Shown: positions 2,681 to 30,299 of the stretch, one piece after another | How positions within the stretch are numbered: position 1 is the first letter of the stretch | Layout: the number at the start of each line of letters is the position of its first letter | From: Bacteroidota bacterium | GTDB lineage: Bacteria; Bacteroidota; Bacteroidia; Chitinophagales; Chitinophagaceae | NCBI GenBank assembly: GCA_018266615.1 | Contig: JAFEAB010000096.1 | Span: 62,001-126,000, forward strand | Direction of reading: 5' to 3' | DNA length: 64,000 nucleotides | Position numbers and translations under genes: made by a program | The notes under the pieces: generated by a model | Database searches by the model: none | Seen by the model: only the letters and a program-made list of their open reading frames with translations | What the model was told of the DNA's origin: nothing

Positions 2681-2960
2681 GCTATTCGTGCATTCGTGGC
2701 CAGTTCTCATTCGTGCATTCGTGGCTTTGTTCTATTCGTGTCCAGTTCTCATTCGTGCATTCATGGCTATTTTCTATTCGGGCATTCGTGGCTTTGTTCT
2801 ATTCGTGCCCAGTTCTCATTCGTGCATTCGTGGCTATTTTCTATTCGTACCCAGTTCTTATTCGTGCATTCGTGGCTTTGTTCTATTCGTGTCCATTTCT
2901 TATTCGTGCATTCGTGGCTATTTTCTATTCGTACCCAGTTCTTATTCGTGCATTCGTGGC
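2681..2960 (-). repeat. Repeat array, copy 1: alternating 25-bp and 17-bp units
   Basis: From 2701 the DNA reads as consecutive units of 25, 17, 25, 25, 17, 25, 17, 25, 17, 25, 17 and 25 bp. The 25-bp unit ends in ATTCGTGCATTCGTGGC and the 17-bp unit ends in ATTCGTRYC; both begin with a segment containing TTCT. Together they make a 42-bp higher-order repeat with one interruption (two 25-bp units in a row at 2743-2792). A partial unit lies at 2681-2700. The array starts 44 bp after the regulator stop codon. Read on the minus strand it matches the array at 19171-19611. Stop-free plus-strand frames through it are a by-product of the repeat. Confidence 0.95.
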
Positions 2961-3120
2961 TAACAAAAAAACTCTACCAGGAAAGTCCGTAACTAGGGAC
3001 AGCAGAGGCGAAATAAATATCGGCCAAACTAAATTTTCATCAGCCAGATCTTTTTGCTCTAATTTTTCCCGGCTATATTTTTACCCCCGGGGTGGGGGCA
3101 GCAAATTGTCAGGAAATTTT
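2961..3120 (-). repeat. Conserved 160-bp head of the composite repeat, copy 1 (inverted)
   Basis: The reverse complement of this segment aligns end to end with 19011-19170 at roughly 88-90% identity by hand, with one compensating pair of indels near the outer end. In both copies it abuts the repeat array through the same junction, GTTAGCCACGAATG on the head-to-array strand. It contains a GC-rich run with the palindrome CCCCGGGG beside AT-rich sequence (TAAAAATATAG). No protein-coding frame is evident. Confidence 0.93.
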
Positions 3121-3402
3121 TCGCAGCTCCCATTTCAATTGACTAAATCAGTACACAACTTTTCCTTTCCATTACCCAACTCAACTATACAAAAATGTCC
3201 CGTCAAAATTCTGTTGAAACCCTTGTTACTGCCCACGGGCTGCCGGATGTTCGCCTGACCGAACGGGCAGGGGAGCGATTGCGGACAGCCGGGACAGCAA
3301 TTGATTAAAGAATCAACCGCCGAAAGCCCCAAAGTATATTTACCATAATTAACTGAACCGTATCTTCTCCCCTTCATAAAAATCTTCTATCCCGGCAATC
3401 AG
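3121..3402. other. Intergenic region with a structured GC-rich element
   Basis: This stretch separates the repeat head from the DCC-family gene. Its central part (about 3230-3300) is much richer in GC than its surroundings and holds three consecutive inverted repeats: CTGCC/GGCAG with inner GTTCG/CGAAC (3240-3270), ATTGC/GCAAT (3278-3301) and TTGATT/AATCAA (3301-3316). A 37-codon frame (3195-3308) runs through it but looks accidental. Confidence 0.6.
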
Positions 3403-18730: not shown

Positions 18731-19010
18731 AATAAAATAGAGGGGTTGAAAATATAAGGCGAATATATTAATAAATGGTTTTATGAAGAGAATTCGGGTT
18801 CCAATTGGATTTGAGGTATAGTTTTGATTAGATAATATTGGAAGGTGGAAATTATTGTTTGTAATAATATTAAACCCGTTTTCGCCCCACTTAAGGCGTT
18901 CAATTCTATTTATCCTATTTGTGGAGTTGGAAGAATAGACCTAAGCCTGAAGTTGCCAGACAAGGGGGAGGCAGGGGAATGAATTTAGTTACATTACCCA
19001 GGAATTGGTA
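18731..19010. other. Intergenic region before repeat copy 2
   Basis: About 280 bp upstream of the M16 gene and left of the conserved repeat head. I see no gene, terminator or further repeat; a small CGCC/GGCG inverted repeat near 18890 is weak. Confidence 0.5.
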
Positions 19011-19170
19011 AAAATTTATCGCAAATTGCTGCCCCCTCCCCGGGGGTAAAAATATAGCCGGAAAAAATTAGAGCAAAAAAATCTGGCTGAAGAAAATTTA
19101 GTTTGGCTGATGTTTATTTCGCCTCTGATGTCCGTAGTTACGGGCTTCCCTGGTAGAACTTTTTATGTTA
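19011..19170 (+). repeat. Conserved 160-bp head of the composite repeat, copy 2
   Basis: This segment is the inverted counterpart of 2961-3120, about 88-90% identical by hand alignment. It includes the same GC-rich run with CCCCGGGG, the AAAAATATAGCCGG stretch and the same junction with the array (GTTAGCCACGAATG). No coding potential is visible. Confidence 0.93.
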
Positions 19171-19611
19171 GCCACGAATGCACGAATGAGAACTAGCTTC
19201 GAATACACGAATGAGAACTGGCCACCAATGCTCGAATAGAAAATAGCCACGAATGCACGAATGAGAACTAGCTACGAATGCACGAATGAGAACCAGCCAC
19301 GAATGCACGAATGAGAACCAGCCACGAATGCACGAATGAGAACTAGCTTCGAATACACGAATGAGAACTAGCTTCGAATGCACGAATGAGAACTAGCTTC
19401 GAATACACGAATGAGAACTAGCTTCGAATGCACGAATGAGAACCAGCCACCAATGCACAAATGAGAACTAGCTACGAATGCACGAATGAGAACCAGCCAC
19501 CAATGCACGAATGAGAACAAGCCACCAATGTTCGAATGAGAACTAGCTGCGAATACACGAATGAGAACTGGCCACCAATGCACGAATAGAAAATAGCCAC
19601 GAATGCTCGAA
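19171..19611 (+). repeat. Repeat array, copy 2: seventeen 25-bp units plus a partial unit
   Basis: Seventeen units of exactly 25 bp run from 19171 to 19595, and a partial unit ends near 19611. Each starts with GCCACGAATGCACGAATG or a variant and usually ends AGAACTA, AGAACCA or AGAACTG. The unit is itself built on a doubled CACGAATG. Variable positions are the 3rd-5th bases (CAC, TTC, TAC, TGC), G or C at base 6, and G or A at base 10. Units 3 and 17 share a distinct ending, AATAGAAAATA. There are no unique spacers and no cas genes, so this is not a CRISPR array. Confidence 0.96.
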
Positions 19612-19703
19612 CAATTCCTATTCTCGATATTGACTATTATTTACAATCAAGGCTGGTAAGATAAAAATGAATCTCAGGGGAAAATCTGAAACTCCCCCTA
19701 AAC

Positions 19704-24200: not shown

Positions 24201-26605
24201 CGGGTATGATTAAGCGAAAAGCTAAGTGGAATGTTTACTTTAATACTGAAATTCCGGCCCATATTATACACTCCGGTTCTCCCTGTAGCAAGGTTTTGAG
24301 GCAGATATTTTAACCGGCTCAGGTGGTTTTGATATGCCACATTGGCCAGGTTCATGGCGGTAAAATTTATACTGCATAAGGTTTTCCCTTTTCTACTCAC
24401 TACATCGGCTCCCAATCCGGCATTCAACAACATATAGGCAGGGGTTGCCGTTTCAGTATTGTATGCCGTGAACGGATGGGCTTGCTTAAACATGTTTTCC
24501 ATTTCAAACTTAATGAAAGCGTGCTGCATAAAATTACCCACCTGTTTAAAATCGGTACGCACTTCGGTAAGCAATTTTGTGGCAGGAATAAAGGGTAAAT
24601 TCTTATTTCCTTCAACCTCATCTCTTAATCTGCCCTGTACCAGGGAAAAAGTATTTTGAAAGTGGAGCCAATCAAGCGGGTGCGGGTGTACATCCAGGGT
24701 TGCCTCAATACCGGCCAAATGAGCGGCTTTCTGGTTAAAGGTAAATGCAGTGAGCGCATTGCCATCCACCACCACTACCGAATCTGCTCCTCCGATGTTC
24801 TGAAGTTTCCGGTAAAAGATAAAATTGCTGAAACCATTATAATAACCGGAAAGGTTAAACGAAAAATGGGTTGTCAATAAATCGATGGCGGCATCAACCT
24901 GGGTGCTTATTTCGCTGTTGAGGTTTGAATTTCCATACTCATACCGATTGGTCCCTTCGTGGGCTCCGTTTGAGGCCAGCTCAGAAATTCCCGGTGCACG
25001 GAAAGCGCGGGAAACGTTCAGTTTTAAATTGATGGATTTTGTGGCTTGCAAAGTGGCACCCACACTCCCTGAAAAACTGGAGAAACTCCTTGAAAAACCG
25101 TCTGATTTGATATTATTCCCATCCATCAGATTGTGAACATGCATTTGCCTGGTATCATACCGGGCTCCACCGCTAAAAGTGAATTTTCCCATTTCCTTTT
25201 GCACATAGCCATATCCTCCGAAATCAAAAAGGGAATAATCCGGTATTAATTGTTCCGATCCCCTATTTTGGTTTTCCTGTTGCATGCCGTTAATGCCAAA
25301 GGAAGGTTTCCATCCATTCTTCTCCCGAAGTAATAACCGGCCAGTATAGGTAAAGGTTTTTAAATCGAAAAAGAGGTTGCGCTCATTAACGTCATCCGGA
25401 TTCCCAAATTCTTCGCGTCTGTTTTGCTGCCAACCCAGGTTTACATTTAGCGCAGCCTTTCCAATCTTAATGTGGTTGTCGTTAGAAAATTTAAAATGCC
25501 GGATGTGCTGATAGGGTATCTGGGGGTGGGTACTTAAAAAATCACTTTGGGTGGGCAATTCTTCCAATCCGCCCGGTCCGGATTTTACAAAATTTCCATT
25601 ATCATCCCGCAGGCCTTCTATCAATCCCGTTTTCATATTGAAGTTGCTAAACATCAGGTGGCTGTACCCCCAACTCTTATTAATTCCTGCAAATCCACCA
25701 TAGTTATGCTCATTGAACTTCGAATTAAATACCGGGCCATCGAATCTATTTTTGTAATCGGAGGCAGCAATTAAATCGCCATACAAATTCCAGTTAAATC
25801 CATTGATATTGCCTGCCAAATTTCCATTAAAACTTCGCAGGCGGTTATTGGTTTGGTAGTTGGACCCCACATTAGCCTGGATGGAATTTTCGGGAACAGG
25901 TAAATTGCTGATGATGTTGATCACTCCTGCCATTGCATCACTACCATAAATTAAAGAGGCAGGCCCCTTCAGTATCTCGATTTTCTTTACACTGCTTTCA
26001 TCAATCTCAATCCCATGCTCATCGCCCCATTGCTGGCCTTCCTGCCTAACTCCATCGTTTATTACTAAAACCCTGTTATAACCCAATCCACGAATGACCG
26101 GTTTTGAAATGGAAGGGCCGGAAGAGAGAGAAGAGACGCCTGGTTTCCTGGTTAGCCCTTCAATAATATTGCTGGTGGCCGATTCAAACAAATCTTGCTT
26201 TTTGAGGGATTCGACCTGAAACGGAACACGCTTTAACTGGGTAGCACGGGTTACTCCGGTTACCACTACCACATTATTCTCAACAATCGATTCGGAAAGC
26301 AGGAATTCCATCGTGGTGGCGCCTTGAATATTTACATTCTCGGCAATCGTGTTATAGCCGATATGGGATACTTCAACCAGGTGTTTCCCTTCGCTGATAT
26401 TGTGTATGCTGAACTCCCCGCGTTCATTCGTGCGGCACCCCTGCCGGGTATCGGTAATATATACGGATACGGATACAAGGGGCCTGTTCGTTTTAGCATC
26501 TTTTACCACCCCGCTAAAACTTCCCTTCAAGGGCTCACCGGCGTAGGTTTGCTTTTGAAAACTGTATAATAAGATAATTGAAAGCAACGCTAACTTTATT
26601 TTCAT
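24197..26605 (-). CDS. TonB-dependent outer-membrane receptor with N-terminal carboxypeptidase-regulatory-like domain
   Basis: This 802-residue receptor takes up a ligand across the outer membrane using TonB energy. It has a signal peptide (about 1-21), a CarboxypepD-reg-like domain (about 27-112), a plug domain (about 113-230, including VIRGLGYNRVLVINDGVRQEG and IEILKGPASLIYGSDAMAGVINI) and a C-terminal barrel. The QWGDEHGIEID segment in the plug recalls ZnuD-like metal receptors, so a metal is a possible ligand; this is inference. A small HCDC protein gene lies upstream on the same strand. Confidence 0.9.
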   Translation of the reverse strand: MKIKLALLSIILLYSFQKQTYAGEPLKGSFSGVVKDAKTNRPLVSVSVYITDTRQGCRTNERGEFSIHNISEGKHLVEVSHIGYNTIAENVNIQGATTMEFLLSESIVENNVVVVTGVTRATQLKRVPFQVESLKKQDLFESATSNIIEGLTRKPGVSSLSSGPSISKPVIRGLGYNRVLVINDGVRQEGQQWGDEHGIEIDESSVKKIEILKGPASLIYGSDAMAGVINIISNLPVPENSIQANVGSNYQTNNRLRSFNGNLAGNINGFNWNLYGDLIAASDYKNRFDGPVFNSKFNEHNYGGFAGINKSWGYSHLMFSNFNMKTGLIEGLRDDNGNFVKSGPGGLEELPTQSDFLSTHPQIPYQHIRHFKFSNDNHIKIGKAALNVNLGWQQNRREEFGNPDDVNERNLFFDLKTFTYTGRLLLREKNGWKPSFGINGMQQENQNRGSEQLIPDYSLFDFGGYGYVQKEMGKFTFSGGARYDTRQMHVHNLMDGNNIKSDGFSRSFSSFSGSVGATLQATKSINLKLNVSRAFRAPGISELASNGAHEGTNRYEYGNSNLNSEISTQVDAAIDLLTTHFSFNLSGYYNGFSNFIFYRKLQNIGGADSVVVVDGNALTAFTFNQKAAHLAGIEATLDVHPHPLDWLHFQNTFSLVQGRLRDEVEGNKNLPFIPATKLLTEVRTDFKQVGNFMQHAFIKFEMENMFKQAHPFTAYNTETATPAYMLLNAGLGADVVSRKGKTLCSINFTAMNLANVAYQNHLSRLKYLPQNLATGRTGVYNMGRNFSIKVNIPLSFSLNHTR

Positions 26606-29510: not shown

Positions 29511-30299
29511 ATGGAGCATCTTTTTACCTCAGAAAGTATCATCAGCTTTATTATCCTGGTAATCCTGGAAATCGTTCTGGGTATCGATAATGTCATTTTT
29601 GTAAGTATCATTTTAAATCGATTAAAAGATAAACGGCAAAAAAATAATGCCCGGAAACTGTGGATTGTGGGAGGCATCCTTTCCCGAAGCCTTTTGTTAT
29701 TGGGACTGGGTTGGCTGCTTTCACAAAAAGGAAATTATCTTTTCGAAATTTCGGGGAAAGGGTTTGATTTAGCAAGTCTGGTAATGTTAGGCGGGGGTTT
29801 ATTTTTGTTGTATAAATCGGTAATGGAAATCCACCATAAACTGGAAGGAGAAGACCCGGCGGCAACCAGTGGTTCCGCCAAGCCTATGCATTTCGGGCAG
29901 GCGGTAGGCCAAATATTTTTGATAGACGCCGTATTTTCTTTCGACAGCATTATTACTGCCGGAGGAACCGCCAAACACGTAGAAATAATGATTGCTGCGG
30001 TAGTTATTGCCATGTTTGTCATGTTTCAATTCAGCGCCGGAATTGCCGATTTTATTCATAAGCACCCTACCCTAAAAATGCTTGCACTCTCTTTCCTTGT
30101 TATGATTGGACTCGGCCTGATAATTGAAGGTTGGGACAGTGAGCAGGCCCACAACTTACACCTTAAGAATTACATTTATTTTGGAATGGCCTTTTCATTT
30201 GGAGTGGAAATGCTAAATATGCTGATGCGGAAAAAACAAAAAGAAAGAGTGGTAAGTTTGAATGACCCGGTATTGGAAGAAAACGGGGAAGCGAACTGA
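29511..30299 (+). CDS. TerC-family integral membrane protein
   Basis: This 262-residue protein has about seven transmembrane segments and the TerC signature ILEIVLGIDNVIFVS near residues 17-31, plus LIDAVFSFDSIITA at about 137-150 with acidic residues inside membrane helices. Members such as Alx and MeeY export manganese; others are linked to tellurite resistance. The substrate is not known here. It is tightly behind pyrD and converges with rsmE. Confidence 0.9.
   Translation: MEHLFTSESIISFIILVILEIVLGIDNVIFVSIILNRLKDKRQKNNARKLWIVGGILSRSLLLLGLGWLLSQKGNYLFEISGKGFDLASLVMLGGGLFLLYKSVMEIHHKLEGEDPAATSGSAKPMHFGQAVGQIFLIDAVFSFDSIITAGGTAKHVEIMIAAVVIAMFVMFQFSAGIADFIHKHPTLKMLALSFLVMIGLGLIIEGWDSEQAHNLHLKNYIYFGMAFSFGVEMLNMLMRKKQKERVVSLNDPVLEENGEAN

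Follow-up and report, generated by a model that had tools for sequence, protein, structure and literature searches.

A probable lineage-restricted family of REP/MITE-like repeats with a fused 17-bp minisatellite in a member of the Chitinophagaceae

The window, i.e., the whole 64,000-nucleotide stretch of DNA analyzed here, contains a non-coding sequence that is present twice in inverted orientation, at positions 2961-3121 on the plus strand and 19010-19170 on the minus strand. In a BLAST search of 2961-3130 against its own genome, the two copies aligned with 89% identity over 161 bp (E value of 1e-53), which bears out the inverted pair of 160-bp sequences described in the sequence-only reading. 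The same holds for its claim that both copies end at one common junction with an array, GTGGCTAAC (GTTAGCCAC on the other strand). The arrays are built from a 17-bp unit, ATTCGTGCATTCGTGGC. Array 1 (2684-2962, plus strand) consists of eight copies of this unit with locus-specific spacers and a period of 25 or 42, and array 2 (19169-19612, minus strand) contains 17 recognised units with a period of 25. Altogether, the window has 27 matches to the unit with at most 3 mismatches, versus 0.54 expected in shuffles.

Each window copy can be divided into an extension, an arm, a core, and a tail. Head 1, on the plus strand, includes an AT-rich arm (3010-3075) with two modules, AAATAAA..GGCC and ACTAAATTTTCATCAGCC, which the alignment of 65 copies places ∼21 bp apart, followed by TTTG at 3053-3056; the core TATTTTTACCCCCGGGGTGGGGGCAGCAAA (3076-3105), which matches the genome-wide core search with at most 3 mismatches; and a T-rich, weakly conserved tail (3106-3139). 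The covariance model matches positions 3000-3139 with 118 bits. Head 2, on the minus strand, has its tail at 18991-19024 (delimited by the copy alignment), its core TATTTTTACCCCCGGGGAGGGGGCAGCAAT at 19025-19054 (core search), and its arm at 19055-19120 (covariance model match); here, the model matches 18991-19130 with 121.6 bits. The extensions that separate the unit from the arm, at 2961-3009 on the plus strand and 19121-19170 on the minus strand, were found only in these two copies. Their ∼48 extra bp produce the length of 160 bp; the true element is ∼100 bp long, and the longer form is peculiar to the window pair. The neighbor of head 1, the REP-like palindrome GGGCTGCCGGATGTTCGCCTGACCGAACGGGCAGGG (3237-3272, plus strand), belongs to a separate repeat family (GGGCTGCCGGATG..CGGGCAGGG) that also occurs at C64:28908, C38:763, and C8:9242; four of its five matches lie within 500 bp of a head.

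The genome is a 2.91-Mb draft in 110 contigs, and the counts of units, heads, and terminal inverted repeat (TIR) pairs cover 1.62 Mb of it (∼56%). BLAST gave 45 matches to the head in the genome, and the core ATTTTTACCCCCGGGGNGGGGGCAGCAAA gave 62 to 64 matches with at most 3 mismatches, compared to none for the reversed control. The 1.62 Mb contain 65 copies of the element that is referred to here as type A, ∼25 copies of type B (this count allows up to 3 mismatches, and a few of them may be weak), and 319 units. Searching the genome for further head-array junctions returned many, at different loci; dozens of additional copies are found at other loci, all of them intergenic, in agreement with the earlier description of a dispersed non-coding sequence. 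Many heads are located at contig ends (C73, C80, C38, C31, C86, C88, C22, and C99); the copy number given here is therefore a minimum, and these repeats break draft assemblies.

The type A element combines an AT-rich arm carrying TTTG-N19-TATTTTTR with a near-invariant 29-bp GC-rich core, ACCCCCGGGGNGGGGGCAGCAAA, and a T-rich tail. In the alignment of the 65 copies, the core is almost unchanged, while the arms, with their two modules, vary and the tail is only weakly conserved. Type B elements, found with the covariance model R1, share the arm with type A but carry a different GC-rich hairpin, TTGTACCTGGGGGAAGGGGCGGCAGCCCCGGGG, and they also have the 17-bp unit. The general layout is a 17-bp unit, single or in tandem, followed by an AT-rich arm, a GC-rich hairpin core, and a short tail. 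Many heads are arranged in tandem; in contig C53, a distance of 122 bp separates two type B copies that stand head to tail, and both start with a 17-bp unit. In some pairs, the two copies resemble each other from the exact edge of the core downstream but differ upstream of it, a mosaic pattern that indicates recombination at the core.

The 319 units are grouped in 55 clusters. A head is found within 350 bp of 47 of these clusters, and the unit and the head are co-oriented in 59 of 66 pairs (p = 2e-11). The distance from the unit to the core is quantised: it is 67 to 70 bp in 14 copies, including both types, 95 to 98 in another 14, and 117 to 118 in the two window copies, for a total of 30 out of 33. 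Since the same distances recur at unlinked loci, the junction belongs to the element and did not arise from two insertions that happened to coincide. The spacers within the arrays, ∼5 to 49 nt long, are specific for each locus, as would be expected if a unit already in place had been amplified locally in tandem. Nevertheless, either part can occur alone: an array is missing next to many heads, and a few arrays lack a head. Units without a head are also present in other Bacteroidetes, so the unit is older than the head or independent of it. Matches to the unit plus AAATAAA in the relatives carry no head and were rejected as a wider family. A viral carrier was rejected as well: the core is absent from viral contigs, and the unit occurs in four of them, three with identical surroundings. 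At C7:47881-48941 (L115), two unit arrays in opposite orientations surround a headless stretch of ∼540 bp, each array following a gene on the same strand.

No type A copies or unit clusters were found inside genes called by a simple codon-based procedure in the 1.62 Mb. Heads are mostly located behind genes; with neighboring copies merged, convergent genes surround 17 clusters of type A and divergent ones surround 4 (Fisher p = 0.003), an excess that fits the purging of promoter-breaking insertions. There is no replication-strand bias, with 23 copies oriented with the local GC skew and 22 against it.

None of the 98 relatives searched, which include 58 members of the same genus, contains the core. 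A scan of GTDB species genomes, which may omit the records of this genome itself, found the core in two contigs only. One of them (L130) shares 99.97% identity with contig C38 and comes from the same species. The other one (L131) represents a sister species, with 73 to 80% identity to contig C7; two heads lie in one of its spacers, ∼1 kb long, whereas the syntenic spacer C7:7593-7852 is 260 bp long and has none. The two spacers cannot be aligned, which leaves gain and loss unseparated and the insertion ends undefined; judged from the sequence of a single MAG contig, the comparison proves turnover, not its direction. At the window locus, the gap between the MarR and DCC genes is a few bp in the relative G031 versus 778 bp here, and other relatives have extra genes between MarR and DCC, so the ancestral state is ambiguous. 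Three weak matches of the covariance model in relatives are near chance for 88 genomes.

These observations suggest that the heads are probably a lineage-restricted, non-autonomous dispersed repeat of a REP/MITE-like nature with a fused minisatellite. The head has no coding capacity, and no transposase of its own was found. In the 1.62 Mb, no inverted pair of units bounds any head, and an autonomous parent with the unit as its TIR was not detected in this portion of the 2.91 Mb. Nor was a target-site duplication recognised around the head, the insertion ends being undefined. An enzyme supplied in trans would recognise the arm together with the hairpin, leading to the spread of copies; the unit would then expand locally via slippage or unequal crossing-over, with the spacers becoming fixed at each locus. 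Recombination at the identical core would shuffle arms and tails and produce tandem pairs, and selection would leave survivors mostly where no promoter had been broken, between convergent genes. The trans-acting enzyme and its chemistry are postulated from this pattern, and some of the copies could have arisen through duplication by ordinary recombination.

The genome encodes one RAYT-type Y1 transposase (C104:24789-25343, L110), which can be regarded as a candidate only. Two diverged type B copies are found upstream of its gene, but the palindromes that flank it directly, CAGGTCTGGAGACCTGCGCCAG, are different, and the proximity of type B may be due to chance because there are ∼50 head loci. 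Copies of GGAAGACTTGCGCCAG, related to the RAYT-flanking palindromes, recur beside heads. A search for IS91-type (rolling-circle) transposases gave no match, but neither did the control genomes. In contig C108 (L111) and at C59:16450-16610, arrays of GTGCGCCCCTACGGGGC, which is unrelated to the heads and the units, surround a gene for an IS200-like transposase.

Alternatively, the heads could be dispersed regulatory elements kept by selection, such as promoters with two palindromic operator-like modules upstream and a start in the GC-rich hairpin. The Bacteroides sigma factor consensus consists of TTTG at -33 and TAnnTTTG at -7 (PMC7366714), and the TTTG-N19-TATTTTT(A/G) motif matches it. In 45 of the 65 type A copies, TTTG precedes TATTTT by exactly 19 nt; the -7 box is TATTTTTA in 43 copies and the exact sigma-ABfr consensus TATTTTTG in only 7. 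The near-invariance of the core next to variable arms and the weak arm-like matches upstream of genes in the relatives G111, G127, and G117 also favor such a role. However, the fixed spacing may descend from one ancestor, the arm palindromes show no covariation, and type B lacks a consistent -7 box. The heads lie behind genes, mostly convergent ones, and co-oriented downstream genes are not in excess (25 on the same strand versus 32 on the opposite one). The promoter-like motif can be considered suggestive at the sequence level; type B and the sites occupied by the heads argue against their acting as promoters in general, and a dispersed regulatory element kept by selection appears unlikely. 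In G127 and G111 (L178 and L179), a conserved motif, CTGAATAAAGTTATGCTGTGACTGAATTTTCTTCAGT, that resembles the head arm is found upstream of orthologous genes.

Another explanation, that the head is a 3'-end element of the upstream gene, either a terminator or an mRNA-stabilising hairpin, is quite improbable. In 49 of 61 copies, the head and the upstream gene share a strand, but this is automatic for convergent sites; at tandem sites, the strand of the upstream gene is favored 19 to 6, and the ratio of 12 to 5 that is left once neighboring copies are merged is not significant by itself. Changes in the GGC/GCC tail stem are mostly C to T and keep the pairing, but the control measures for this stem fall below those of shuffles. 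The T-run stands before the main hairpin, not after it, and the terminator pattern is absent at head 1, while the matches near head 2 appear only beyond its array, so an intrinsic terminator was rejected. A structured RNA was rejected because of its ordinary folding energy, the lack of covariation, and the absence of any Rfam match, the last of which agrees with the unknown type suggested earlier.

The promoter-like and mobile features could also be combined in a modular mobile element, in which a promoter-like AT-rich arm is joined to interchangeable GC-rich hairpins and to a 17-bp end unit that amplifies itself. An uncharacterised enzyme acting in trans would disperse this element, which would bring transcription or 3'-end processing to many loci. 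Such an arrangement is quite improbable.

The idea that the head could be a MITE, either an IS5-type one like BrickBuilt or one in which the 17-bp unit serves as the TIR, draws on a 115- to 119-bp sequence bounded by GCCACGAATGCACGAAT and ATTCGTGCATTCGTGGC, with four copies beside heads (C106:20939-21054, 24256-24371, 24547-24666, and 29756-29871; L122), and on the BrickBuilt element, which likewise joins a leader, a minisatellite, and a tail (PMC4596501), but it is very unlikely, as the inverted closing units are seen only in these four copies, all within 10 kb, units almost everywhere else have one orientation, and the TIR and the 23-nt repeat of BrickBuilt differ from the sequences described here. 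The 115-bp sequence hints that the 17-bp unit began as a terminal repeat. In the same contig, C106:24900-24920 is a run of 13 C at the start of a gene for a predicted secreted protein, a possible slippage tract.

Among the known systems, a CRISPR leader, an AT-rich head beside a repeat array, resembles the heads. In contrast to CRISPR, the spacers here are repeated within an array, the arrays are found on either side of the head, and there are dozens of loci. The closest precedent in architecture is the BrickBuilt element of Porphyromonas gingivalis, in which a leader and a tail surround a 23-nt minisatellite (PMC4596501), so the earlier suggestion that a conserved head joined to a variable array is of unknown type is not supported. 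As for the proposal of a non-autonomous element or a regulatory or structural module of unknown type, the part that stands is a non-coding dispersed repeat with further copies. Both repeats are found in Bacteroidetes, are intergenic and species-restricted, have no coding capacity (PMC4596501), and join a conserved flanking segment to a minisatellite whose copy number varies. However, BrickBuilt has spacerless 23-nt repeats instead of 17-bp units with locus-specific spacers, and 12-bp IS5-like TIRs (PMC4596501, Table 2), while the head has no TIR and its ends differ. There are 19 BrickBuilt copies, the full elements always having an array, as opposed to ∼90 heads, many of which have none.

The closest in size, placement, and palindrome are the REP elements. 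Similarly to REP/BIME and to REPINs mobilised by RAYT (PMC2817692, PMC3116915), the heads are short, intergenic, clustered, lineage-specific, and present in high copy number with a GC-rich palindromic core, and this genome also has one RAYT-type gene. Unlike REPs and REPINs, they are ∼100 bp long, have a long AT-rich arm, and form direct tandem rather than alternating copies, and the RAYT gene here is flanked by a different palindrome. Given that BrickBuilt fails on the repeat, the spacer, and the TIR, and that the RAYT link is tentative, the heads are placed with the REP/MITE kind of repeats but are filed in neither family.

What is new is the family itself; bacterial genomic repeats of this REP- or MITE-like sort are already known, and no new kind of machine is involved. 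To our knowledge, REP-like repeats have been described less in Bacteroidetes than in Proteobacteria. If the proposed interpretation is true, the heads are the second, and a more abundant, example in Bacteroidetes of a minisatellite that is fused to a dispersed repeat, and the swap of the type A and type B hairpins, the fixed junctions, and the difference from the sister species make them a tractable system for studying the spread of gene-less repeats.
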